Positions 6,536 through 21,908 of a stretch of 64,000 bases of DNA are shown piece after piece. How positions within the stretch are numbered: position 1 is the stretch's first letter; every line of letters starts with the position of its first letter. The notes below the pieces were generated by a model. It ran no database searches, was not told where the DNA came from, and saw only the letters and a list, made by a program, of their open reading frames with translations. The position numbers were made by a program, and so were the translations under genes. Source of the DNA: Fusobacterium mortiferum ATCC 9817 (GTDB taxonomy: Bacteria; Fusobacteriota; Fusobacteriia; Fusobacteriales; Fusobacteriaceae); the NCBI RefSeq assembly GCF_000158195.2, contig NZ_GL987988.1, positions 205,371-269,370 of the forward strand, read 5' to 3'.

Positions 6536-7666
6536 ATGGCAGAAGTAATATTAAAAAAAGTAGAAAAACAATATCCTAATGGGTTTAAAGCTGTACATGG
6601 GATAGATTTAGATATTAAAGACGGGGAGTTTATGGTTTTTGTTGGTCCATCTGGTTGTGCTAAATCTACTACTCTTAGAATGATAGCTGGTCTTGAAGAG
6701 ATTACTGGTGGAGAGATTTGGATTGGAGATAAGTTAGTTAATGATTTACCACCAAAAGATAGAGGAATTGCAATGGTATTCCAAAACTATGCTCTGTATC
6801 CTCATATGACTGTATATGATAATATGGCATTTGGACTTAAGATGGCTAAAGTACCAAAAGATGAGATAGATAGAAGAGTTAGAGAAGCAGCAGAAAAATT
6901 AGAGATAACTCAATTATTAGATAGAAAACCAAAGGAGATGTCTGGAGGACAAAGACAAAGGGTAGCAGTTGGAAGAGCTATTGTAAGAAAACCAGATGTA
7001 TTCCTATTTGATGAACCACTATCTAACCTAGATGCAAAATTAAGAGTATCAATGAGAGTAAAGATAACTCAACTACATAAGCAATTAAAAGCTGAGGGAC
7101 AAACAGCTACAATGATATATGTAACACATGACCAAGTAGAAGCAATGACAATGGGAGATAGAATCTGTGTATTAAACTATGGAAAGATAATGCAAGTAGA
7201 TACACCGTTAAATCTATATCATAAACCAGCAAATAAATTTGTTGCAGGATTTATAGGTTCACCAGCAATGAACTTTGTGGAGGGAGCAATAGAGGAAAAT
7301 GAAAATGGAGTAATCTTCATGTTTGGACAAGGAAGATATGTAGTACTACCAGAGGATATGGGAGAAAAGGTAAAATCATATATAGGTAAAAAAGTAGTAC
7401 TAGGAATAAGACCAGAGAATATAGGAAATAAGGTAACACACCCAGAGGGAGAGAAGATAAATTTCTTAAAAGGAGATGTAAGTATAGTAGAGCATATGGG
7501 AAATGAAGAGTATATCTACTTCAACATAGACGGAAATGAATTTACATCAAGAATAGAAGCAAGAAAGAGTGAAAATGTAAAATATGGAGAAGTAGGGGAG
7601 TTTTACTTCAACATAAAGAGAGCTCATATATTTGATATAGAAACTGAAGAGAATATCACTTTATAA
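6536..7666 (+). CDS. ABC sugar importer ATPase, MsmK/UgpC type
   Basis: This is the cytoplasmic nucleotide-binding subunit of a carbohydrate ABC importer. It has Walker [10 protein letters not shown] (about residue 38), the signature [13 protein letters not shown], Walker [18 protein letters not shown], the switch His in YVTHDQ, and a C-terminal OB-like regulatory domain (about 240-376) typical of the MalK/MsmK/UgpC group. It is the first gene of a four-gene operon with two permeases and a lipoprotein binding protein. A dedicated ATPase inside this operon suggests a self-contained importer rather than one borrowing a shared MsmK. In S. moniliformis the homologous system imports unsaturated GAG disaccharides; the same substrate is inferred here. 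Confidence 0.9.
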
Positions 7667-7677
7667 CTGGAGGTAGT

Positions 7678-8577
7678 ATGAAAGTAAAATTTAATAGAGA
7701 TCAAAAAATGTTATATTTAATACTACTACCATTTATAATATGGTATGCAGTATTTATGTTTAAGCCTATGTATGGAATGGTAATAGCTTTTAAAGATTAT
7801 AGTTTGTTTAGAGGAATATCTGGAAGTGAGTGGGTAGGACTTAAGAACTTTAAAGATTTTTTAACAAGCCCAGAATTCTATGTTACTTTAAAAAATACAT
7901 TGATGTTAAATGTATATAGCTTACTATTAGAATTTCCTTTTGCTATTTTATTAGCTTTAATGTTAAACGAGGTAAAGAACAAATATTTTAAAACAATAGT
8001 TCAAACAGCTTCGTTTATTCCTTACTTTATAGCAATAGTTGTAGCAACAGGGATAACAGTTAATATTTTATCTCCAAGTACTGGAGTAGTAAATGTTTTC
8101 TTAGAAAAATTAGGATTTGAAAGAGTATATTTTTTAGCTAAACCAGAATTTTTTAGAGGGATATTTACAGGACTTAATATGTGGAAGACAGCTGGATTTA
8201 ATGCTGTAATATATTTAGCGGCACTAACAGCTGTAGATGAACAACTTTATGAAGCAGCAAAAATTGATGGAGCAAATAAATTTCAACAATTAAGACATAT
8301 AACAATACCAGCAATAATTCCTACAATAGTTGTAATGTTAGTATTAAAAGTAGGAAGTATGCTAAATGTAGCTTTTGAAACAGTGTTATTACTTTATCAA
8401 CCAGCAACATATGAAACAGCAGATGTAATTAGTACTTATGTATATAGAACAGGAATGTTGATGCAAGACTTTGGACTTGCAACAGCAGTTGGGTTATTCA
8501 ATGCAGTAGTAGGGTTTATTTTAGTATATAGTGCAAATAGATGGAGTAAAAAAGTTACTCAATCGAGTTTATGGTAG
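7678..8577 (+). CDS. ABC importer permease, LplB-like
   Basis: This integral inner-membrane subunit has about six transmembrane helices, beginning MLYLILLPFIIWYAVFMFKPMYGMVIAF. The EAA loop reads YEAAKIDGANKFQQLRHITIPAI and contacts the ATPase. It belongs to the LplB/YtcP-style permeases used for oligosaccharides of uronate-containing polymers. It starts 11 nt after the ATPase gene, with SD GGAGG, and ends next to the second permease. Its substrate is taken from the operon context, not from the sequence alone. Confidence 0.88.
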   Translation: MKVKFNRDQKMLYLILLPFIIWYAVFMFKPMYGMVIAFKDYSLFRGISGSEWVGLKNFKDFLTSPEFYVTLKNTLMLNVYSLLLEFPFAILLALMLNEVKNKYFKTIVQTASFIPYFIAIVVATGITVNILSPSTGVVNVFLEKLGFERVYFLAKPEFFRGIFTGLNMWKTAGFNAVIYLAALTAVDEQLYEAAKIDGANKFQQLRHITIPAIIPTIVVMLVLKVGSMLNVAFETVLLLYQPATYETADVISTYVYRTGMLMQDFGLATAVGLFNAVVGFILVYSANRWSKKVTQSSLW

Positions 8578-8588
8578 GAGGAAAAAAG

Positions 8589-9467
8589 ATGAAAATAAAA
8601 ATGGGAACAGATGAAAAAATCTTTTATACAGTAAATTATATACTTCTTACTATATTCGCAATAATGTTTTTATATCCAATAGTTTATGTATTTTCAGCAG
8701 CAGTAAGCAATCCATATCTTGTAGAGACAGGATCAGTGGTACTTTTTCCAAAAGGATTTAATTTAAATTCTTTTAAAAGTGCTATGGAGTTAACAGGGAT
8801 GTGGAGAGCTTATGGAAACTCAATATTTATAACAGCAGTGGGAACAGTAGTGAGCATGGTATTTACTATAAGTGGAGCCTATGTTTTATCAAAACCAGAG
8901 CTGAAATTTAGAAAGTTTTGGACATTTATGGTAATAGTAACTATGTGGTTTGATCCAGGAATGATACCTAAATATTTAAACTTTAGAGATTTAGGATTGA
9001 TAGATAGTTACACAGGAGTAATTTTAGGATTTGCAATAAATACATTTAATGTTATAATTTTAAAGTCATTCTTTGAAGCAGTGCCAAAATCATTAGAAGA
9101 AGCAGCAAGAATAGATGGAGCTTCACAATTTCAAATAATGACAAAGATATATCTACCTCTATCAGTATCAGCATTGACAACAGTTTCTTTATTCTATGCT
9201 GTTTCAAGATGGAATGGATATTTCTGGACAATGGTACTTTTAATAGATGATAAGAAAGCACCATTACAAGTTTTCTTAAAAAAATTAATAGTAGAAAAGA
9301 ACATGGCTGGAGAAGCAAGTCAAATGATAACAGCACAAAGTTTGACATCTCCACAGACAATCATATATGCTGTGATAGCTCTATCATTAATACCGATATT
9401 TATAGTATATCCATTTATACAAAAATTCTTTAGAAAAGGGGTTACATTAGGAGCGGTAAAAGAATAA
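8589..9467 (+). CDS. ABC importer permease, YtcP-like
   Basis: This is the second membrane subunit of the importer, with about six transmembrane helices and the EAA loop LEEAARIDGASQFQIMTKIYLPLS. I place the start at the ATG at 8589 because AGGAGG (8576-8581) lies 7 nt upstream. The in-frame ATG at 8571 overlaps the end of the preceding gene and lacks an SD. The family pairing with the LplB-like permease is the usual one. Product length is 292 aa. Confidence 0.88.
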   Translation: MKIKMGTDEKIFYTVNYILLTIFAIMFLYPIVYVFSAAVSNPYLVETGSVVLFPKGFNLNSFKSAMELTGMWRAYGNSIFITAVGTVVSMVFTISGAYVLSKPELKFRKFWTFMVIVTMWFDPGMIPKYLNFRDLGLIDSYTGVILGFAINTFNVIILKSFFEAVPKSLEEAARIDGASQFQIMTKIYLPLSVSALTTVSLFYAVSRWNGYFWTMVLLIDDKKAPLQVFLKKLIVEKNMAGEASQMITAQSLTSPQTIIYAVIALSLIPIFIVYPFIQKFFRKGVTLGAVKE

Positions 9468-9492
9468 GTTTAGGGAAAGAGTAGGAGGAACT

Positions 9493-11055
9493 ATGTTAAA
9501 AAAAATATTATTAGGGGTAGTTGCAATATTAGCTCTTATAGGATGTGGAGAAGAAAAAGAGGAGAAAGTAACAGGACCAGTTAAAAAATTAGAAGGGTCA
9601 GTTATTACAGAAAAACATAAAGAATTTACAGTATTTGCAATATTTCAAGGAAAGGCTTTTGATTCTGAATTGCCAGTATTTAAAAAAGCTGAAGATATGA
9701 CAAATGTAAAAATGGTAGGAGTAGCATCAAAAAATCAAAGTGATGAAGTACAAGCCTTTAACTTGATGTTATCATCAGGAAATTTACCAGATGTAATAGC
9801 TTATGAATTGACACCAGATTTAGAAAAATTAGGAATAGATGGAGGATTAATTCCGTTAGAAGATTTAATAAAGGAACATGCTCCAAATATTACAAAATTT
9901 TGGGAAGAGAATCCTCAATATAAAAAGGATGCTGTAGCAGTAGATGGACATATCTATATGATACCTAACTATAATGATGTTAAAAATTTAAGTTTAACTC
10001 AACAATACTATATAAGAAAAGATTGGTTAGAAAAATTAGGATTAGAAGAACCTAAAACAGTTGATGAGCTATATAATGTATTAGTAACATTTAGAGATAA
10101 AGACCCAAATGGAAATGGGAAAAAAGATGAAGTACCTATTTTTATTAGAGGAAATGTAGTAAGAAAGATATTACTACCATTAACAGATATATTTAAGGCA
10201 CAAGCAGTGTGGTATGCAGATAATGGAACACCAAAATTTGGACCTGCAGAACCAGAATGGAAAGATGCTATGATAAATTTAGCAAAATGGTATAGAGAGG
10301 GATTAATAGACCAAGAGGTATTTACAAGAGGAATGACTTCAAGAGACTATATGTTAAGTAATGACTTAGGTGGATTTACTAATGACTGGCCAAGTGCTGG
10401 AACATATAATGAAAGTTTGTCAAAAACAATACCTGGTTTTGATTTTTCAGTAATGTTACCACCAGAGTATAAAGGAAATAATAAAACATTCTTTGCAAGA
10501 CCTAACTATATGGGAGCTTGGGGAATTACAATAGCTGCTAAAGATCCAGTAACAATAGTTAAATACTTCGATTTCTGGTATTCAGAAGAGGGAAGAAGAT
10601 TATGGAACTTTGGAATTGAGGGAGAAGATTATACAATAATTGATGGGAAACCTCAGTTTACTGATAAAATTTTAAAAGATCCTAATGGAAAAAATCCAGT
10701 AGCAGCGATTAGAGAAACTGGAGCTCAATATAGATTGGGAATGTTCCAAGATGCAGAGGCTGAAAAGCAAACATCTGGAGAAGCTGCATTAAAAGCAGTA
10801 GACCTATATGTAAAAAATAATGTAGTTGATCTACCAATGCCACAGTTAAAATATACAAAAGATGAGCTGAAAGAGTTCTTAAAAATAGAAGCTCAACTTC
10901 GTTCTGTGTCAGAAGAGATGGGACAAAAATGGATATTAGGTGTATCAGATGTAGAAAAAGATTGGGATAGCTATATAGAGAGATTAAATTCTTTAGGATT
11001 AAAGAGAGCTCAAGAAATCCAAAAAAATGCATATGATAGATTTATGAAAAATTAA
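9493..11055 (+). CDS. Lipoprotein sugar-binding protein of the ABC importer
   Basis: This extracytoplasmic solute-binding protein has a lipobox, LIGC, with the lipidated cysteine at residue 18. It is large (520 aa), as in the LplA/AlgQ-type binders of oligosaccharides. DPNGNGKKDE (about 204-213) is an EF-hand-like calcium loop, as known in alginate and GAG-disaccharide binding proteins. Conserved stretches such as AWGITIAAKDPVTIVKYFDFWYS and MGQKWILGVSDVEKDWDSYIERL recur in the second binding protein at 36000-37532, so the two are paralogues. It is the last gene of the ABC operon. By analogy with the S. moniliformis protein Smon0123 it probably binds unsaturated hyaluronan or chondroitin disaccharides. 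Confidence 0.88.
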   Translation: MLKKILLGVVAILALIGCGEEKEEKVTGPVKKLEGSVITEKHKEFTVFAIFQGKAFDSELPVFKKAEDMTNVKMVGVASKNQSDEVQAFNLMLSSGNLPDVIAYELTPDLEKLGIDGGLIPLEDLIKEHAPNITKFWEENPQYKKDAVAVDGHIYMIPNYNDVKNLSLTQQYYIRKDWLEKLGLEEPKTVDELYNVLVTFRDKDPNGNGKKDEVPIFIRGNVVRKILLPLTDIFKAQAVWYADNGTPKFGPAEPEWKDAMINLAKWYREGLIDQEVFTRGMTSRDYMLSNDLGGFTNDWPSAGTYNESLSKTIPGFDFSVMLPPEYKGNNKTFFARPNYMGAWGITIAAKDPVTIVKYFDFWYSEEGRRLWNFGIEGEDYTIIDGKPQFTDKILKDPNGKNPVAAIRETGAQYRLGMFQDAEAEKQTSGEAALKAVDLYVKNNVVDLPMPQLKYTKDELKEFLKIEAQLRSVSEEMGQKWILGVSDVEKDWDSYIERLNSLGLKRAQEIQKNAYDRFMKN

Positions 11056-11081
11056 AATTGTTAACCAATACCTCTTAATAT

Positions 11082-11121
11082 AAAAGGATTACTGTATCTT
11101 AATGATATGGTAGTTCTTTTT
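11082..11121 (+). terminator. Terminator after the ABC importer operon
   Basis: A 13-bp stem pairs 11086-11098 with 11104-11116, including several G-U pairs, around the 5-nt loop TTAAT. A T5 run follows, and an A tract precedes the stem. Confidence 0.7.
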
Positions 11122-11309
11122 AATTTAAAATAAATAGAAATTGCTTGTATAATTTTTGAAAAATAAAAGTTAAAATTATAGTGAACGTACCTGATAAAGT
11201 TCATAAAAATGCAGTTAGTCTGTGATTGAAAGATTTATTTAGGGAAAAATTTGGAGAAAAATAAAAAAAGAAATAGAAGAAAATGAAATAATAGGAAGAA
11301 AAAAAGTGT

Positions 11310-11440
11310 GATATGCCTATCAATAAAAATTGTGAGGGGGTATCACAAAAATCTGTGATGGATAATCAAAAAATGGTGGGGGTATCAATAAAAAATAGGG
11401 GAGGGTATTAAGAAAAAAATGATTTACCTATTAATAAAAA
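11310..11440. repeat. Degenerate 23-bp tandem repeat, about six units
   Basis: TATCA/TATTA cores recur at 11318, 11341, about 11363, 11383, 11406 and 11429, a spacing of about 20-23 bp. Four of them follow a G-rich step (GGGGTATCA type), and all are followed by an A-rich stretch. The period is about two helical turns and is not a multiple of three, so the repeat is not coding. Function is unknown. Confidence 0.55.
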
Positions 11441-11729
11441 GACGAAGTATAATAATACAAGAAGAATAATACAAGATTATTATTACAAGAAGAATAAATA
11501 TATTATATATACACATATACAAACTGAAAAAAGCTTTGGAAGTAGAATCTTTAACTTATTATGGTTAAAAAATATATAGAAAATTGAATATAGAAAGATA
11601 GAAAAATAATAATGCTGTTAAAAAATAAAAAAATAATTTATTTTAAAATTATTTTTGAAAATAAATATAATAAAATACTTTGCAGTATTCTCTCTTAATA
11701 AAAGAAAATGGAATATAGAATCATAATGA

Positions 11730-11758
11730 TTTATTTTGTGAAGAAATTATGATAATAT
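11730..11758 (+). promoter_or_regulatory. Putative promoter of the autotransporter-PL8 operon
   Basis: ATAATGATTTATT places a -35-like TTTATT at 11730-11735, followed by a 17-nt spacer and -10 TAATAT at 11753-11758. The GATTTA core and TAGAAT just upstream (11716-11721) resemble the stronger GAG promoters, but the match is partial. Confidence 0.45.
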
Positions 11759-11832
11759 AAGAATGAAAAACAACATTCAGCTCTAAAATAATACATAATA
11801 ATTAGAGGTGAGATATGAGTTAGGGAGGGAAT

Positions 11833-14800
11833 ATGCAGAAGAAAAAATTATTATTATTATCAGCAATAGTTTTATTGATGGGAACAAATAGTTATGGAAG
11901 ATTATACCCTAAAGATGGAGAAGTAATTACCCAAGAGAATATAGAAAAACATTTGGGAGAAAAACCAGATAAGAATGGTGTAGCAACAATTGTAAGTATT
12001 GCTAAAAATGTGGGGGCTAGTGTTGATGAGAAAGTAAATTTAGAGTTGGTAAATTCTGAAGATGGAGTTCTAAAAAAAGTTATAAATATAGCAAGTGGGA
12101 GTTCTGATATTGCGACTACTAATAATGGAATTATAAAAGCTACTAATAATGGTGGAAAAGGAGTAGAGATAGTTTCTATTCAAAGTGGGAAGTTTGTAAA
12201 TAATGGAACTATTGGTATTAATGGTACTGGTGGAAAAGGAATAAATATAACTGGAGCTAATGTAAAAACAGAAAATAATGGAACAATAGAAGTTAATGGG
12301 GGAGCAAGTGGAGTTGTTGTAAGTAATGATAGTGCTTCTTTTGTAAATAATGAAACTGGAAAAATAATAGCAACTGGTGAAAACTCAAAAGGAATAGAAA
12401 TAACAAAAGGAACAGCAGAAAATAAAGGTATAATAGAAGCAAAAGATGGTGCTATCGGAGTTTATGTAAATGGAGGAAACTTAACAAATAGTGGTAAAAT
12501 AATAGCTTCTGGAGTAAATACTGATGGAGTAAGAATAGAAAAAGGTAATTTTACAACAGATGAAAATAGTGTGATTGAAGTAAATGGAAGTGATAAATTA
12601 ACTTCTGGTAAATCAGAAGCAAGTGGTGTAAAAGTAAATGGAACTTCTAACTTTGTAAATAATGGGATTATTAAGGTATCGGGAACTACTGATGGAGCAT
12701 ACTCTGGATATCAATCAAAAGGAATAAATATAAATAGTGCAACTGCTACTGCAGAAAATAAAGGAACTATTATTGTTGAAAGAAATGGAATAGGAGTAGG
12801 AACAAAAGGAACATTTACAAATAATGGTGGAATAAAAGTAAGTGGAAGTGGAATAGGAATAAATGTAATAGATAGTGGAAATGCCATTAATAATGAAATA
12901 ATAGAAGCTGATGGAAAAAGTTATGGAATACAAGTATCAGCTAAAGGAACAGCAACAAATAAAGGAACTATTATTGTAAAAAATGGTTCAACAGGAATAA
13001 CAACGTCAAAGGTAGATGGAAATACAACAAGTTATACTGATATAATTAATGAAGGAGTTATTGAAGTAAGTGGAGATAATTCGACAGGAATGCAGGCTAA
13101 TGATAATAGAAAAGTTGTAAATAATGAAGATATATTAGTAAATGCAGGAAAATATACTTCAGGAATGAAGACTGCTGGAAAAAATGCGTTAGCAGAGAAT
13201 AATGGAAATTTAACTATTAATGGAGATAAAAAAAATACTTCTAATGGAATGCTTGCTCAAAATGGTGGAAAAGTAGTTAATGGAAAAGATGGAGTAGTAA
13301 AAGCTAGTGGGAAAACAACTTCAGCAATGTCAGCTAGTGGAAAAGGTTCAAAAGCAGAAAATATTGGAAAAACAGAATTATTTGATAATGCTATTGGAAT
13401 GAAAATAGAAAAAGAAGGGATAGGAACTAATAGTGGAACTATAAAAGGAAGTGGAACAGGGATAAATCTAATTGGTGGTATTTTTGTAAATAGTGGAGAG
13501 ATTAGCATAGGAGATATTGCTATTCAATCTTCAACTACTAGCAAAAAAGAGAATAATCAAACTGTAATTGTGCCAACTAATAATACTGTTTACTTAAAAA
13601 ATGGAAGTAAGATAAATGGAAAAATAGTAGGAAATACTGGAATAGATGTACTTGCTTTAGAAGGAAAAGATGGAGAATATAATAACCTTGATGTTTCAAA
13701 ATATGAAGCTATAACTGTTAGAAATGGAGATGCTACAATCTCAGATTCTACAATAGCATTAGAATATAACAAAGGAACAGAAGATTATTTAAATACTAGT
13801 AATAATGAATTGGATAAATTAGAAAATTCCTCTACTGCAAAGATAGATAGTACAGGAAATTTAACTATGAAAAATAGTAATTTAATTATAGATTTTAAAG
13901 ATTCGTTGACAAACCCAAATGCAACAGAAAATCCAATAATAGATACTGGAAGTTTAAGTTTTGAAGGAAAGACAAGTTTTGTTTTTAATTCAAGTGATGG
14001 AAGAACAGAGTTTAATTTAAATGAAGCTTTAGGTTTGGAAGGAAAAGATAAGATAAATTTAAAAGAGGCAAAATTAGAAACAACAGCTGTATGGGATTAT
14101 CAAGTTGATGAAAATGGAGATCTTATTGCTAAGAAAGAAACTTATGATAATGTAATTACAGATAGTAGATTAGATAATTTTGCAAAGATATTCGAAAAAA
14201 ACAGAAGTAAGATGTCAGGAGAATTTTTTAAACAAGTAGTTGGAGAGCTGGATACTTTAAAAACAGAAGAAGAATTTACAAAAGCTATGGGACAAATTTC
14301 TGGTGGGATACATGGATATACTGTGGATATAGCAGCTATCAATTCAAGAAATTTAGTTAATACTATGAAAAATAAAGCATTAACAAGAGATTATTTAACA
14401 GCTAGACCATTAAATTCTTGGTATCAAGATGTAATATATTTGGATAATAATCAAAGATTAGGTGGACTTATGTCTGGAAGTTATCAAGAAAATGGAATAC
14501 TTGGAATCTCAGAAAAACAATCTGTAAAAAATGGAAGATTAGGATTTGTATATGGTGGAAGTAAAGGAAAAGCTAAGTTCGATGGTGGAGATAGTGGAGA
14601 AATAGCAACAGATAATATTTATGTAGGACTTTATTATAACCATAATTTAAGTGAAAAATTAGCATTAAATACAAATTTCTCTTTTGTTTATGGACACAAT
14701 AACATAAATAGAAGAGTGAATATAGGAAACTTTAATGAGGAATTAAAATCTCATTATCCTACATATGCTATGGGAGTAGGAACAAGTGCTATCTATACTA

Positions 14801-16326
14801 TTAAAGATGATGCTAAAAATAAAGCTTCATTCTATGCTGGAATAGATGTAAATAGAATAATGCAAGGGAATATAAATGAGAAAGAAGAGGAGAGAATTCA
14901 TTCAACAAATCAAGATAATATAAATTTAATGGTAAAAAATCAAAATGCTAATGAATTTTCTTATTACTCAATTACTCCACATGCAGGATTTATGTTCCAA
15001 AATACAGGGTATATTTTTGATAGAAAATATTTAGTAGGAGCAGATTTAGCTTGGGAAACAGAGTTAGGAAATATTAAAGATGGAAAAAGATTAAATATGC
15101 AAGGTATAACGGACCAATATAAAGTAGGAACTATGGAGAGAGAAAATGTATTTTCTACAAGTATCTTTGGACAATTAGATATAACAGAATCTTTAGCTTT
15201 AAATGGTAGATATACATCTTCAATATCAGATGAGTATGATGCTGATATGCTAACAATGGGATTAACATATAAGATGGATACTATGGCAGATACTCCAATT
15301 TTTGGACCTCTTTTAAGTGGTATAGAAAATACTAGATTATCATCAGATAGATGGAGTGGAACTTTTGCATTGATGATGGAGTCAGAAGATGACTCAGATA
15401 GAGTATATTATTCACAAATAGATAATTCATTAAGTAGTGGGGATTATGCTACATCAATGAAGATGAAACCTAAGTTTACTTTGAGCTTAAATGATAAGAA
15501 AACAAAATGGTCATACTATTTTGAAGGTTACTATATGGCAAATGATTTCTTAAAAGATACTAAGGCTGGAGAAGCAGAACAAAAGGCTACAAGACTTCAT
15601 GGGGAAGCTAGATGGAGTGATTCATATTCTAAGGGAAGATATGGATTTAACATAGGATATAGAAATGAAACATCAGATAAGCCAGCATTATCATATACTA
15701 AAGGACCAGCAAGAGTAGAAAGAGGGGTTCATCAATTAAGATTAACACCAAACTTCTCGTATAATTTAGGTAGTGGATTTAGATTAGATATGAAAACTAC
15801 AGGAATATTTGAGTATAACTACACTGGACTTTTAGAAGGACAAATGGATTTCTTAATGGAAAATGAACATAATTTAGTGTATACTGGATTTATGCCAAGA
15901 TGGCAATTAAGAATGGGATATTATAGAGAAGATAGATGGATGGATCATGATGGGATAAAGTATTCTAGTTATAATGCTAATTCAGGAGAATATGTATTTG
16001 CTAAAGGAGCAGGAAGATATCAAATGAATCAATTAAGACCATCAGCAACTTACTATTTTGGAAATGGAGATAGTGTAACATTTGCTCTAAGAGTACCACT
16101 AGGAAACGGAGCTTGGTATAACTCATTAGATAATAATAAGAAAGATTCTGAAAGCTATGAAACAAGGTATACAGTAAAGTATAACCATGTGGTAGTACCT
16201 GGATTTAATATCTTTGGAGAACTTACTTTCTTAGATTTAAAAACTAAAGTAACGAAAGAAAATGATAGAAAAGTTACAAGAGCATACTCATTTAGACCAA
16301 CAGTAGGATTCAGTTATAATTTCTAA
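11833..16326 (+). CDS. Autotransporter adhesin with an added C-terminal porin-like beta-barrel
   Basis: A signal peptide (MQKKKLLLLSAIVLLMGTNSYG) precedes a long Gly/Asn-rich passenger (about residues 30-775). The passenger has many NNGTI-type imperfect repeats of about 20-30 residues, as in fusobacterial beta-helix adhesins. A type V autotransporter barrel follows (about 860-1148), ending in the strand MLTMGLTYKM. Such proteins normally stop there. This one continues for about 350 residues (1149-1497) with alternating aromatic and polar beta-strands and ends in VGFSYNF, a terminal-Phe outer-membrane signal. That tail resembles an oligosaccharide porin of the KdgM/OmpG kind. It is the first gene of an operon with a secreted PL8 lyase 18 nt downstream, so adhesion to GAG and uptake of its fragments are plausible roles. 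The second-barrel reading is inference. Confidence 0.85.
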   Translation: MQKKKLLLLSAIVLLMGTNSYGRLYPKDGEVITQENIEKHLGEKPDKNGVATIVSIAKNVGASVDEKVNLELVNSEDGVLKKVINIASGSSDIATTNNGIIKATNNGGKGVEIVSIQSGKFVNNGTIGINGTGGKGINITGANVKTENNGTIEVNGGASGVVVSNDSASFVNNETGKIIATGENSKGIEITKGTAENKGIIEAKDGAIGVYVNGGNLTNSGKIIASGVNTDGVRIEKGNFTTDENSVIEVNGSDKLTSGKSEASGVKVNGTSNFVNNGIIKVSGTTDGAYSGYQSKGININSATATAENKGTIIVERNGIGVGTKGTFTNNGGIKVSGSGIGINVIDSGNAINNEIIEADGKSYGIQVSAKGTATNKGTIIVKNGSTGITTSKVDGNTTSYTDIINEGVIEVSGDNSTGMQANDNRKVVNNEDILVNAGKYTSGMKTAGKNALAENNGNLTINGDKKNTSNGMLAQNGGKVVNGKDGVVKASGKTTSAMSASGKGSKAENIGKTELFDNAIGMKIEKEGIGTNSGTIKGSGTGINLIGGIFVNSGEISIGDIAIQSSTTSKKENNQTVIVPTNNTVYLKNGSKINGKIVGNTGIDVLALEGKDGEYNNLDVSKYEAITVRNGDATISDSTIALEYNKGTEDYLNTSNNELDKLENSSTAKIDSTGNLTMKNSNLIIDFKDSLTNPNATENPIIDTGSLSFEGKTSFVFNSSDGRTEFNLNEALGLEGKDKINLKEAKLETTAVWDYQVDENGDLIAKKETYDNVITDSRLDNFAKIFEKNRSKMSGEFFKQVVGELDTLKTEEEFTKAMGQISGGIHGYTVDIAAINSRNLVNTMKNKALTRDYLTARPLNSWYQDVIYLDNNQRLGGLMSGSYQENGILGISEKQSVKNGRLGFVYGGSKGKAKFDGGDSGEIATDNIYVGLYYNHNLSEKLALNTNFSFVYGHNNINRRVNIGNFNEELKSHYPTYAMGVGTSAIYTIKDDAKNKASFYAGIDVNRIMQGNINEKEEERIHSTNQDNINLMVKNQNANEFSYYSITPHAGFMFQNTGYIFDRKYLVGADLAWETELGNIKDGKRLNMQGITDQYKVGTMERENVFSTSIFGQLDITESLALNGRYTSSISDEYDADMLTMGLTYKMDTMADTPIFGPLLSGIENTRLSSDRWSGTFALMMESEDDSDRVYYSQIDNSLSSGDYATSMKMKPKFTLSLNDKKTKWSYYFEGYYMANDFLKDTKAGEAEQKATRLHGEARWSDSYSKGRYGFNIGYRNETSDKPALSYTKGPARVERGVHQLRLTPNFSYNLGSGFRLDMKTTGIFEYNYTGLLEGQMDFLMENEHNLVYTGFMPRWQLRMGYYREDRWMDHDGIKYSSYNANSGEYVFAKGAGRYQMNQLRPSATYYFGNGDSVTFALRVPLGNGAWYNSLDNNKKDSESYETRYTVKYNHVVVPGFNIFGELTFLDLKTKVTKENDRKVTRAYSFRPTVGFSYNF

Positions 16327-16344: not shown

Positions 16345-18762
16345 ATGAAAAAGAAATTAATATTAATATGTGCAATACTAGCTTTAACAACTACTTCTTT
16401 CTCTCAAGAGGTAGAAAAAATAGAGAATACAAAAAAACAGGAGATTTCTCAACAGGAGATAAGAGATTATAAAAAGATAAGAGATGGTTGGGTGGAGTTT
16501 TTAACTGGCTTACCACAAGATAATAGAATTTTGGAGATGTCAAAAGCTGACATCTCTAGAATAGTGGCTATGAATGAGGGAGTAGCAGATAAAGTTTATG
16601 AGAATATGAACTTTGATAAAAATAGAACATCTATTTTTAAAGGTGCTGAAAATATGAAAAATGGAGTTCATGTAATGAGACAATATGAGAACTTAGTAAA
16701 AATAGCCAAGGCATATGCAACTCCAGGAACTAAATACTATAAAAATGAAAAAACTAAACAAGATATAATAGAGAGTTTAGATTGGTTATATGATAATGCT
16801 TATCATGAAGGATTACCAGAACTAGGAAACTGGTGGCAATGGGAATTAGGAATTCCTAAAAATTTAAATGATTTATTAACTTTAGTATATGATGATGTAC
16901 CAGCAGAAAAAAGAACGAAATACTTAAAAGCTTCTCAATATTTCCAACAATATGCAGAGTGGTCAGGTGTAAGTCCATCGGCTTCTTACTCTTCATCTCC
17001 AGATAAGAGAATTTCTACTGGGGGAAATAGAATGGATACATCAATAATCTCATTTTTAAGAGGGGTATTGATGGAAGATAAGGTACAAGTATTAGATGGA
17101 TTAAATGCTGTTGCAGATGTTGGAGAGTATGTAACATCAGGAGATGGATTCTATAGAGATGGTTCTTTTATTCAACATGACAATGTAGCATATAATGGAA
17201 CATATGCAGCAGTACTTTTTAATGGACTAGGTTCTATTTTATGGTTAATTAATGGAACAGAGTTTAAAATAAAAGACCCAAGAATAGATAATATTTATGA
17301 GTCTATTTTAAATGGATATAGCTACCTTATGATAAATGGAGGAGTGAATGACTCTGTAAATGGAAGATCTATTTCAAGAGATAAATCTAATGATATTGAG
17401 AAAGGAAGAGCGTTAGTTAGTTCTTTTGCAATGTTATCAGAGGGGGCTAGTCCAGAGTATAAAGAAAAGTTACAATCGTTAATAAAGAAATTAATTCTAG
17501 ATAATAATTCTTATTATACAATAGACAGAGTAAGTAATCAAACTATAAAAAATATCTTAATAGATATAATGAATAATAAAAGTATAAAACCTTTAGAAGT
17601 AAATGGGACAAAAGTTTTTGGTGCCATGGATAGAGCTGTATATTTCAATGGAAAAGATGGAAAAGTAGTAGTGTCAATGCACTCATCAAGAGTAGCTAAC
17701 TTTGAGACAATGAATGGAGAAAATATAAAAGGTTGGTATACTGGAGATGGAATGACATATATCTATGGTAAGGATTCAAGTGCATTTACAGAATTTTGGC
17801 CAACAGTAGATGACTATCATCTACCAGGAGTAACTAATAGTTTAAATCCTAGAGGAGATAAATCAGGAGAGAGAAGAATGATAGGATTTGTATCTCCAAA
17901 ATCTTTTGTAGGAGGAGTTGAAACTGGAAGAGAATCATTTGTAGGAATGGATATGATATCTTGGAATAAACAAACTGAGATGAAAAAATCTTGGTTTATG
18001 ATAGATGGAGTTATTTTAGCAATAGCTTCAAATATAGATAGTAGAGATGGAATAATTCATACTACAATAGATAATAGAATTTTAGAAGATGGAAAAATCT
18101 ATTTAGATGGAAAGCAATTAAAAGAGGAGATTACAATTCAAAATCCTAAAAATCTTTCTATAAACTTTAATGAAAACTATCCAGAAGAAAATATTGGATA
18201 TAAGATAGTAGAAGCTCCTGAGGTAGTAGTAAAAGTAACTGAAAATAAAGGTAGTTGGAAAGATATTGGAGGAAACTCTGATAAAGAGATAACAAAAAAA
18301 TATTTTACAACATATATTAATCATGGAAAAAATCCTAAAGATGCAAAATATGCTTATGTAATTTTACCAATGTTCTCTAAAGAAGAGGTGGATAGTTTTG
18401 ACACTTCAAGATTTGAAATAGTAAAAGCTGATAATGAGGCTCATATAGTTAAAGATAGACAAACTAATACAGTGGGTATAAATTTCTGGAAAGATAAACC
18501 ACAAAAATTTGGAGGAATAAAAACTTACTCTACCCTTTCAGTCTTAAAGAAAGAAAAAGGAGATATCTTAGATTTATATGTAAGTGATCCAGCTCAAATA
18601 CAAAATTATGATTCAAAAATTGAATTAGATGGAAAATATGAGTTAGTAGAAAGTACAGATAAGAATATCAAGCTAAATATTAAGAACTTTATAACAGAAA
18701 TAGAAGTGGATTTAAAAAATAATGGTGCTACTAAATATATAAAACTAAGAAAAGTAAAATAG
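16345..18762 (+). CDS. Secreted polysaccharide lyase family 8 (hyaluronate/chondroitin AC lyase type)
   Basis: The protein has a signal peptide (MKKKLILICAILALTTTSFS, then QEV), so it acts in the periplasm or outside. The alpha/alpha-toroid domain carries the aromatic patch N162-W-W and the catalytic triad N228 (GGNR), H278 (GSFIQH) and Y287. The spacings of 50 and 9 residues match pneumococcal hyaluronate lyase (N349, H399, Y408). NGRSISR supplies the conserved Arg. The beta-sandwich follows from about residue 420, with the NFETMNGENIKGWYTGDGMTYIY motif. Length is 805 aa. It is co-transcribed with the autotransporter. The likely products are unsaturated disaccharides from hyaluronan and/or chondroitin. 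Confidence 0.92.
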   Translation: MKKKLILICAILALTTTSFSQEVEKIENTKKQEISQQEIRDYKKIRDGWVEFLTGLPQDNRILEMSKADISRIVAMNEGVADKVYENMNFDKNRTSIFKGAENMKNGVHVMRQYENLVKIAKAYATPGTKYYKNEKTKQDIIESLDWLYDNAYHEGLPELGNWWQWELGIPKNLNDLLTLVYDDVPAEKRTKYLKASQYFQQYAEWSGVSPSASYSSSPDKRISTGGNRMDTSIISFLRGVLMEDKVQVLDGLNAVADVGEYVTSGDGFYRDGSFIQHDNVAYNGTYAAVLFNGLGSILWLINGTEFKIKDPRIDNIYESILNGYSYLMINGGVNDSVNGRSISRDKSNDIEKGRALVSSFAMLSEGASPEYKEKLQSLIKKLILDNNSYYTIDRVSNQTIKNILIDIMNNKSIKPLEVNGTKVFGAMDRAVYFNGKDGKVVVSMHSSRVANFETMNGENIKGWYTGDGMTYIYGKDSSAFTEFWPTVDDYHLPGVTNSLNPRGDKSGERRMIGFVSPKSFVGGVETGRESFVGMDMISWNKQTEMKKSWFMIDGVILAIASNIDSRDGIIHTTIDNRILEDGKIYLDGKQLKEEITIQNPKNLSINFNENYPEENIGYKIVEAPEVVVKVTENKGSWKDIGGNSDKEITKKYFTTYINHGKNPKDAKYAYVILPMFSKEEVDSFDTSRFEIVKADNEAHIVKDRQTNTVGINFWKDKPQKFGGIKTYSTLSVLKKEKGDILDLYVSDPAQIQNYDSKIELDGKYELVESTDKNIKLNIKNFITEIEVDLKNNGATKYIKLRKVK

Positions 18763-18920: not shown

Positions 18921-18977
18921 AATTATATAGTATTAAGTATTATTATAAAAATTAAATTTATGAGAAAAGAGGTTATG

Positions 18978-21908
18978 ATGACAAGAAAAAATAGGATTAC
19001 CTTTAGAAAGATGTTGCTTTCTATTGCAGTTTTAATCAATAGTTATGCTTATGGAAATTATCAATTTGAAGGAGGAATTCCAGAAAATATAATTGTTGGA
19101 AAGAATTCAAAAATAGAGATATCAAAAGAGATAGTAAAAGATGGAGAGCAATCTTTAAAATGGAAATTTAAAAAAGGAGATAAACTCTCTATAAAAGGAG
19201 ATGTAGGATATAAACCTTTTCAAGAGGGAGGAAAGGAAAAATCAAGAGCAAGTTTTGCTATGTGGATATATAATAAAACTCCAATAAAAGATAAACTAAA
19301 GGTAGAGTTTAAAAAGTATGGAGAAACGAAGTCATACTTTGAAATAAATATGGATTTTACAGGTTGGAGAACTATGTGGGTGCAGTATGATAGAGATATG
19401 AAGGGAAGAGCAATTACAGGAATGGATGAAATAGTATTTGTTGCTCCTAATTCTGATGGAGAGATATATTTAGATCAGATTATACCTTCTATTTTGATAG
19501 ATCCTAGATATAATGCTAGAGATGAGCAGGTAAATTTTGTAAATCTGCCAGCTGATTACACAGCTAATGCTCACTGGATGGCTCTATATAAAAATTATAA
19601 TCAAATAAAGAAAAGTAATTTAAAAGAGATAACATCTCAAGAGAGAATAGGATTACAAAAGATAGGGGAAAAGTTAAGAAAAGATATATTGAAAAGTGTA
19701 AAAGTAAAAGATAAAAATATTAGAGAGAAGAGAGAAAAGTTAGAAGAGTATAAAAAACAATTCTTAGCTACTCCACAGTTGATAGAAATCTATGAAGAGT
19801 TATCAAAAGAGGAGTTTGCTTTGATAGATTATCTTCCACTTCAAGAGTTTGGAACTTATTTAAGAGAGCTAGCATATATGTATAATTCTACAAATGATAA
19901 AAACCAACAAGAAGAGATATATTCTATATTTAAAGATGCTCTTGATTTTATGTATAGTCAAGGGTGGACAAAGGGAAGCTCTCAAGGAACAATACACCAT
20001 CTTGGATATAATATAAGAGAGGTATATCAAAGTATCTTACTTATGAGAGAACCGCTTTTATCTCATAGAGATTTAATTAAAGCTAAAGAGATGGTAATGT
20101 GGTATAGTGCTATGGGAATGATATATACTCCAAGTGAAGAGATAAAAGGTGTAAATATAGATGTATTGAATACAATGTTATCTGGAATGTTAACAGCTAT
20201 AATGTTAAATGAAGATGAAAGAGTAGCAACTGCACAACTTAGACAATTCAATAATTATCTAGCTTATGGAATAAATTATACACCTGGGCTTTCTGGTGGA
20301 TTTAAAGATGATGGCTCTGTATTTCATCATATGCAAAATTATCCAGCTTATGCAAAAGGAGCTTTTGAAGGATTAACTCCAATAATCTATTACTTAGGAA
20401 ATACAGACTTTGCTTTAGATGAAATTGCCTATAATAAGGTAAAAAAATCTGTTCTCATGTCAAGAATCTATTCTAATAAATATAATTGGTTAATTAGTAT
20501 AAGTGGAAGACATCCAAATGATAGTTTTAAAATATCCACTGATGTATTTAGATATACAGCATATGGGAAAAAAGAGGGTATAGATAAGGAGCTAGCTGAA
20601 GCATATTTAAGACTTGATAGTGATGGAAAATTTGCCAAAGAATTAAAAAAACTTGGGTATAGAGAGGAAGAAACTCCAAATGGAGCTTGGACAATGAATA
20701 TGGGATCGCTACAACTTCATAGAAGAGATGAGTGGTTAGTGGGAGTAAAGGGATTTAGTAGATATTTGGTAGGAAATGAAACTTATAAAAAAAATAATCT
20801 ATATGGAAGATATATGAGTTATGGAACTGTTCAAATATTACAAAACTCTTTAAAAGAGAGTGGATTTGTACAAGAGGGATGGAACTGGGCACATTATCCT
20901 GGAACTACTGCCATTGCTTTGCCACTGGAAGAGATGAAATCAAGCATAGCTCAAGTAGATACATTTAGTGGAATAGAGGAGATGTTACTTTCAGATGAAA
21001 CTTATTCTGGAGGAAATAACTTAAATAACAATGGTATGTTTGCTATGAAATTACACGAAAATCCAAAATATAATGGAAGCCATAGAGCTAGAAAATCTGT
21101 ATTTTTCTTTGATAATAGAGTGGTATTATTAGGTAGCAATATAGAAAATGACGATAAAGTTAATGAAACTCATACTACTCTTTTCCAAAACTATTTAGGA
21201 GATGGGAAAATTGAAAAAGTAGAAAAGGTAACGAAGGGAGATATAGTTTTAATAGATAGTCAAAATAATATCTATGCAGTTGCTGATGGAGAGGTACATT
21301 ATAAAAGAGAAAAACAACACTCTTTTGACCAAAAAGAGGGAACTCCAACTGAAAATAATTATGAGTTAGCGTATATTAACCATGGAAAAAATCCAAAAGA
21401 TAAGGGATATGAGTATAGTATCTTAGTTAAAGGAAATGAGGAGGAACAAAATAAATTTAAAATTGATAAAGGATATGAGGTACTTAAAAAAGATTATAAT
21501 GCACATATAGTGGAAGATAAAGTATCTAAAATGAGGGGATATGCTTTATTTGAAAGTGGAAAGATAAAGGATAGGTATATCTCTGAAATAGATACCCCAT
21601 CTATGATAATGATTGCTCCAATGGAAGCTGGGATAGAACTTAGTTTTGTTGATCCAGATTTAAGACTTTATGAAGGAAGAGATGAAAGCCAGTATGATAA
21701 AAATGGTAAAATGAGAGAGGTAAGTATATATTCTAGAGCTTGGAATAAAAATAATTCAATACCTCATACTTCAAAGGTTGTTTTAAATGGAAAATACAAA
21801 TTAGAAGAGAATAAAGGGATAAAAGTTGAATATCAAGATGAGAAAACAATTCTTTATATAACAACTACTTATTCTAAAGTTATAAAAATTAAGTTACAAA
21901 AAATTTAA
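18978..21908 (+). CDS. Secreted chondroitin-sulfate ABC lyase-like protein (PL8 superfamily)
   Basis: The architecture matches chondroitinase ABC: a signal peptide (to about residue 30), an N-terminal carbohydrate-binding beta-domain (FEGGIPENI... SLKWKFKKGD), a catalytic alpha-toroid and C-terminal beta-sandwiches. Residues aligning with Proteus chondroitinase ABC I are visible: H451 in VFHHMQNYPAY (its H501), Y458 (Y508), R511 in SGRHP (R560) and E601 in GNETYKKNN (E653); the spacings agree within 2 residues. I prefer the ATG at 18978, with AGAGG 5 nt upstream, over the in-frame ATG at 18960, which has no SD. Length is 976 aa. It is a single-gene unit with its own regulated promoter and terminator. 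Sulfation preference and endo/exo mode cannot be read from the sequence. Confidence 0.88.
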   Translation: MTRKNRITFRKMLLSIAVLINSYAYGNYQFEGGIPENIIVGKNSKIEISKEIVKDGEQSLKWKFKKGDKLSIKGDVGYKPFQEGGKEKSRASFAMWIYNKTPIKDKLKVEFKKYGETKSYFEINMDFTGWRTMWVQYDRDMKGRAITGMDEIVFVAPNSDGEIYLDQIIPSILIDPRYNARDEQVNFVNLPADYTANAHWMALYKNYNQIKKSNLKEITSQERIGLQKIGEKLRKDILKSVKVKDKNIREKREKLEEYKKQFLATPQLIEIYEELSKEEFALIDYLPLQEFGTYLRELAYMYNSTNDKNQQEEIYSIFKDALDFMYSQGWTKGSSQGTIHHLGYNIREVYQSILLMREPLLSHRDLIKAKEMVMWYSAMGMIYTPSEEIKGVNIDVLNTMLSGMLTAIMLNEDERVATAQLRQFNNYLAYGINYTPGLSGGFKDDGSVFHHMQNYPAYAKGAFEGLTPIIYYLGNTDFALDEIAYNKVKKSVLMSRIYSNKYNWLISISGRHPNDSFKISTDVFRYTAYGKKEGIDKELAEAYLRLDSDGKFAKELKKLGYREEETPNGAWTMNMGSLQLHRRDEWLVGVKGFSRYLVGNETYKKNNLYGRYMSYGTVQILQNSLKESGFVQEGWNWAHYPGTTAIALPLEEMKSSIAQVDTFSGIEEMLLSDETYSGGNNLNNNGMFAMKLHENPKYNGSHRARKSVFFFDNRVVLLGSNIENDDKVNETHTTLFQNYLGDGKIEKVEKVTKGDIVLIDSQNNIYAVADGEVHYKREKQHSFDQKEGTPTENNYELAYINHGKNPKDKGYEYSILVKGNEEEQNKFKIDKGYEVLKKDYNAHIVEDKVSKMRGYALFESGKIKDRYISEIDTPSMIMIAPMEAGIELSFVDPDLRLYEGRDESQYDKNGKMREVSIYSRAWNKNNSIPHTSKVVLNGKYKLEENKGIKVEYQDEKTILYITTTYSKVIKIKLQKI

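Follow-up and report, generated by a model that had tools for sequence, protein, structure and literature searches.

A predicted two-barrel protein joining an autotransporter to an OmpG-like porin beside a glycosaminoglycan lyase gene of Fusobacterium mortiferum

The locus and its genes

A window of 64,000 nucleotides from Fusobacterium mortiferum ATCC 9817 (contig NZ_GL987988.1, positions 205,371–269,370) was analysed. It holds a glycosaminoglycan (GAG) island, and all window features described here lie on the forward strand. An ABC importer, consisting of an ATPase, two permeases and a solute-binding lipoprotein, is encoded at 6536–11055 and was assigned by orthology (gene order and similarity) to the Streptobacillus GAG-disaccharide importer (PMC5430744). 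The solute-binding protein gene is separated by a 777-bp gap (11056–11832, no listed ORF of at least 100 aa) from a gene for a fusion protein of 1497 aa (11833–16326), which was delimited by its ORF, a PF03797 match and an AlphaFold2 (AF2) model. A secreted PL8 GAG lyase is encoded 18 bp downstream (16345–18762; Pfam). It is followed by a second secreted PL8-type lyase (Lyase_N/Lyase_catalyt, 18960–21908; Pfam), which also occurs at loci L028 and L104. Promoter-like and terminator sites in the region were not above those in shuffled sequences.

Domain layout of the fusion protein

From its N-terminus, the protein comprises a signal peptide, a beta-repeat passenger, an autotransporter (AT) barrel, a linker and an OmpG-like barrel. 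Signal peptide and repeat-rich passenger (residues 1–781, 11833–14175) vary between homologues, and the passenger vs PDB sequences gave no solved relative. At 14176–14418, AF2 predicted a helical linker, which includes the long AT helix at model residues 44–69. The 12-strand AT barrel (residues 863–1148, 14419–15276) was delimited by PF03797, AF2 and Foldseek. An inter-barrel linker with a short helix and weak conservation follows (residues 1149–1172, 15277–15348; AF2 and alignment), and the chain closes with a predicted 14-strand OmpG-like barrel containing six invariant Arg (residues 1173–1497, 15349–16323; AF2, Foldseek and profiles).

The PF03797 match covers residues 889–1128 and profile positions 29–255 of 255 (E 1.9e-13, Pfam). 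Since the profile is reached to its last position, a whole AT barrel precedes the tail. It ends at residue 1148, with the sequence DADMLTMGLTYKM (MLTMGLTYKM), where autotransporters classically stop and close to where a sequence-only reading of the window had placed its end. The tail has 349 aa (bases 15277–16323 plus stop, residue 1149 at base 15277) and a C-terminal Phe (VGFSYNF). That reading had also estimated about 350 further barrel-like residues; the length agrees, 14 strands were predicted by AF2, and hydrophobic alternation in these strands was above shuffles (p 0.002).

The fusion protein has 369 residues after the PF03797 match. The genome encodes eight other PF03797 proteins; in seven, 15–22 residues follow the match, and in the eighth 165, which form an OmpA domain. 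At L019 (G000:C2:428583–429302 and downstream), in this same genome, another autotransporter carries an OmpA-family domain (PF00691, 1.2e-18) C-terminal to its AT barrel. The tail of the fusion protein is thus something other than the usual barrel of the PF03797 autotransporter group.

Structure prediction

An AF2 model was computed for residues 782–1497 with 15 homologous sequences (mean pLDDT 76.5, pTM 0.68). In it, a long helix precedes 12 strands, and a short linker helix leads on to a further 14. In Foldseek searches against the PDB, whole autotransporter barrels were matched (NalP at TM 0.84 by target length, also EstA and AaaA), as were whole OmpG (TM 0.77–0.80) and CymA (0.69). Foldseek named no query residues, and the OmpG match is assigned to the tail by strand count and sequence kinship. 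When the full model was superimposed on one large barrel (TonB receptors, about 700 columns), the TM was about 0.2 with an rmsd of about 21 Å. A second model, of a passenger-less homologue with 25% identity, again gave 12 + 14 strands (pLDDT 66.5, pTM 0.48); it matched both NalP/EspP and OmpG, and TonB-type receptors were also listed. Only generic barrels were retrieved from a viral fold library.

Both models, of moderate confidence, thus predict two closed barrels in one polypeptide, i.e. two independent barrel domains on one chain. This is the arrangement proposed by the sequence-only reading; a single larger barrel over residues 860–1497 was not seen by AF2 or Foldseek, and such a barrel was rejected on the Foldseek scores. 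Both strand counts are even, which would place the linker and both barrel ends in the periplasm, a consistent topology.

Kinship of the tail

The tail alone had no Pfam match and no PDB sequence match, and PDB sequence searches with the tail profile and with a free-standing porin (see below) also gave no matches. From another genome, G018, the profile of 15 tails retrieved a free-standing protein (E 1.4e-10) that has 340 aa and a signal peptide and passes the PF16946 (Porin_OmpG_1_2) cut-off with 25.3 vs 23 bits. In the reverse search, this porin retrieved the tail at 1e-7. Tails and free-standing PF16946-type porins were aligned by hhalign with a probability of 97.6% over 268 columns, vs 0.7% for the tail and the AT barrel. 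The tail is therefore a relative of the OmpG-type porins (PF16946). The window tail itself stays below the PF16946 cut-off, and the homologue in G052 reaches 21.3 bits vs 23.

Two other origins were tried. A duplication of the AT barrel was rejected on the hhalign probability given above; the tail is accordingly not a second copy of the standard barrel of its group. KdgM/NanC porins are 12-strand barrels. Membership in that family was rejected: the tail has 14 predicted strands, no KdgM-family Pfam match was found, and the family was absent among the top 50 folds. Of the KdgM/NanC/OmpG resemblance suggested from the sequence, the OmpG part thus held and the KdgM/NanC part did not.

The gene of the free-standing porin (L029:5602–6624, forward strand) lies directly upstream of a fusion gene, so that both forms occur in one genome. 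A split version as envisaged by the sequence-only reading was therefore found as a separate porin, but one standing beside the fusion and not replacing it. The window genome contains neither a free-standing PF16946 porin nor a second copy of the tail, consistent with the earlier remark that the island has no separate porin gene. Other free-standing PF16946 porins of the Fusobacteriota are located in sugar operons. Their neighbours are either what we take, from sequence, to be a GH65-type phosphorylase, a beta-phosphoglucomutase and sugar ABC permeases, or a presumed GH32-type hydrolase, named in the same way, with an ABC importer.

Pore chemistry

Predicted strands were oriented with their polar side inward; facing was set by hydrophobicity and not by coordinates. 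With this assignment, Lys and Arg make up 22% of inward positions in the tail (22 basic, 14 acidic residues) vs 11% in the AT barrel. On the same assignment, F/W/Y in the tail are found at 33 outward vs 7 inward positions. Arg 1173, 1254, 1365, 1402, 1420 and 1445 are invariant in 15/15 tails, above expectation (hypergeometric p 0.002), and no invariant Arg was found in the AT barrel in the same 15-locus comparison. These features would fit a tail lumen that guides acidic sugars.

Conservation and distribution

Of 98 Fusobacteriota genomes, 13 carry the fusion; they belong to two families and contribute 15 loci in total. In all 15, the tail is fused. AT-barrel subfamily and tail share an identical set of loci, the next AT matches following only at 1e-11, and the tail is conserved to the same degree as the AT barrel. 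Two loci (L038:9606–11504 and L039:9197–11095) encode 632-aa forms with signal peptide and both barrels and no passenger. As the passenger is missing there while both barrels are present, what is conserved is the pair of barrels.

A lost stop codon or an assembly error was considered and discarded, since no stop interrupts the frame at any of the 15 loci. These come from 13 genomes, of which one is a single contig. The same tail at 14 other loci also rules out chance. To look for the tail in other phyla, genome contigs were scanned with exact peptide patterns; only two near relatives were retrieved, both from one MAG, and the tail may yet extend beyond the Fusobacteriota.

The PL8 partner gene and the GAG island

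At 15/15 loci, the fusion gene precedes a co-oriented PL8 gene by 8–26 bp. PL8 genes were found in 24 of the 98 genomes, namely the 13 that have the fusion and 11 that lack it. The latter show that a different channel can do the work. Pairwise distances of AT barrel, tail and PL8 are correlated (r 0.93–0.96). Fusion presence on the PL8 tree takes three changes vs 7.4 in shuffles; a single gain with two losses would account for this.

The PL8 lyases (window 16345–18762 and homologues) have a plain Sec signal, no lipobox and no AT or secretion domain. They must therefore reach the surface by some other route, or cutting is partly periplasmic. The island was aligned with the GAG cluster of Streptobacillus moniliformis; homologues of the ABC importer, solute-binding protein, PL8, sulfatase, UGL, KduI and KduD were matched. 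GAG clusters have also been described in F. mortiferum and L. goodfellowii (PMC5430744). F. mortiferum is a human-gut hyaluronan degrader that makes hyaluronan oligosaccharides in culture (PMC10191264). Fusobacterial GAG import was previously traced via lyase, binding protein and ABC importer, with the outer-membrane step given as an 'unknown channel/transporter' (PMC5430744).

Streptobacillus-type GAG clusters are closed by proteins of 684–760 aa (L106:15097–17175, forward; L107:3175–5229, reverse; L108:10051–12333 and L109:10080–12236, both forward). These have a signal peptide and an outer-membrane-type C-terminus ending in KYTW, RYTW or KYSW, belong to no Pfam family and are unrelated to the fusion. 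Gene order identifies the cluster-end protein as Smon0128, which PMC5430744 lists as a 'hypothetical protein'; it is a candidate for the missing outer-membrane channel of these clusters. In G081, another genome from the same taxonomic order, a 452-aa protein with a similar outer-membrane-type C-terminus (EYKW) and no significant Pfam match is encoded beside the UGL gene (L110:2058–3416, reverse).

Proposed mechanism and alternatives

We consider it probable that the protein forms two side-by-side barrels, an AT displaying the passenger and an OmpG-like porin that probably admits acidic GAG oligosaccharides released by PL8. The N-terminal unit would act as a type Va autotransporter and expose the beta-repeat passenger. 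The co-expressed PL8 lyase would cut GAG and supply acidic oligosaccharides, which would most likely be passed into the periplasm by the C-terminal 14-strand barrel with its putatively basic, conserved lumen. There, solute-binding protein and ABC importer would take over. Where present, the passenger probably keeps substrate, cell or lyase close to the pore. We infer transport, substrate and this 'adhesin' role. As the two barrels have remained joined in 13 related genomes, always beside a GAG lyase gene, the fusion is a good candidate for the outer-membrane channel importing hyaluronan and chondroitin fragments.

In an extended form of this reading, capture and uptake would be united in one gene: the passenger would bind GAG or PL8 at the cell surface and hand fragments to a dedicated, GAG-selective OmpG-like pore. 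This we regard as possible and rather doubtful. If true, the protein would be a capture-and-uptake fusion that corresponds in function to SusCD and also supplies the GAG channel missing from the fusobacterial outer membrane.

Alternatively, the porin-like barrel might handle the lyase, helping PL8 across the outer membrane or holding it at the surface. Strict PL8 adjacency with correlated divergence would agree with this, as would the PL8 export signals: the lyases have a Sec signal only, with no lipobox or AT domain, yet extracellular hyaluronan is depolymerised by Streptobacillus and F. mortiferum (PMC5430744, PMC10191264). However, a folded 90-kDa enzyme does not fit through a 14-strand pore of OmpG size, the OmpG kin are channels, and PL8 occurs without the fusion in eleven genomes; lyase handling is thus improbable.

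There is also little probability that the tail is a structural or assembly appendage which, for instance, stabilises the AT barrel and does not itself take part in transport. The tail lacks its own Pfam match and is never found alone at high similarity, as an appendage might be. It is, however, as well conserved as the AT barrel, with invariant Arg, Glu and Gln at inward positions, and it was retained with that barrel where the passenger proved dispensable.

One joint barrel of about 26 strands, built by both halves in the manner of LptD or TonB-type receptors, could explain why AT barrel and tail are inseparable in evolution and why TonB-type receptors appear among the Foldseek matches of both models, but it is very unlikely, given that whole 12- and 14-strand barrels fit at TM 0.84 and 0.80 while large barrels fit only as poorly as stated above, that the helix-bearing linker is weakly conserved and that the tail has a free-standing relative.

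For the preferred reading of an AT beside a probable GAG porin, the tail provides a named, expressible and testable candidate for the missing GAG channel in species related to Streptobacillus, probably including relatives of F. mortiferum, and the passenger-less 632-aa forms are natural controls.

Comparison with known systems

The S. moniliformis GAG cluster (PMC5430744) contains orthologues of the island's genes for PL8, the ABC importer, the solute-binding protein, UGL and KduI/D. It differs in having no fusion and, at the cluster end, an unrelated protein of about 690 aa with an outer-membrane-type C-terminus; no kinship between this barrel-like protein and the fusion tail was found.

Type Va autotransporters (PF03797; NalP, EstA, AaaA) share signal peptide, repeat passenger, helix, 12-strand barrel and a fold match with the N-terminal unit. 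Unlike in these, the AT barrel of the fusion is internal and not the C-terminal end, 349 residues with a predicted 14-strand barrel following it, and two members (L038, L039) lack a passenger. OmpG-type monomeric porins (TCDB 1.B.21; PF16946; E. coli OmpG, CymA) resemble the tail in 14 strands, here predicted for the window tail and a passenger-less homologue, in a length of about 330 residues and in the C-terminal Phe. In contrast to these free-standing monomers, the tail is fused behind an autotransporter, lies below Pfam detection, has a basic conserved lumen by assigned facing and is tied to GAG lyases.

Multi-barrel outer-membrane proteins are reportedly the subject of Solan et al. 2021. 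A literature search, mostly outside subscription journals, found neither an autotransporter-porin fusion nor a GAG link of such a protein. The 'new architecture' claimed by the sequence-only reading therefore stands for the combination of AT and porin and falls for barrel fusion as such, which is already known. MnoP and other fused porins carry two or three barrels; these fusions are reported from alpha-proteobacteria only, and none of those described includes an autotransporter (PMC4827864). GfcD combines 12 and 13 strands and serves capsule export (PMC11494523). With these multi-barrel proteins, the fusion shares two barrel domains per chain, in its case by prediction.
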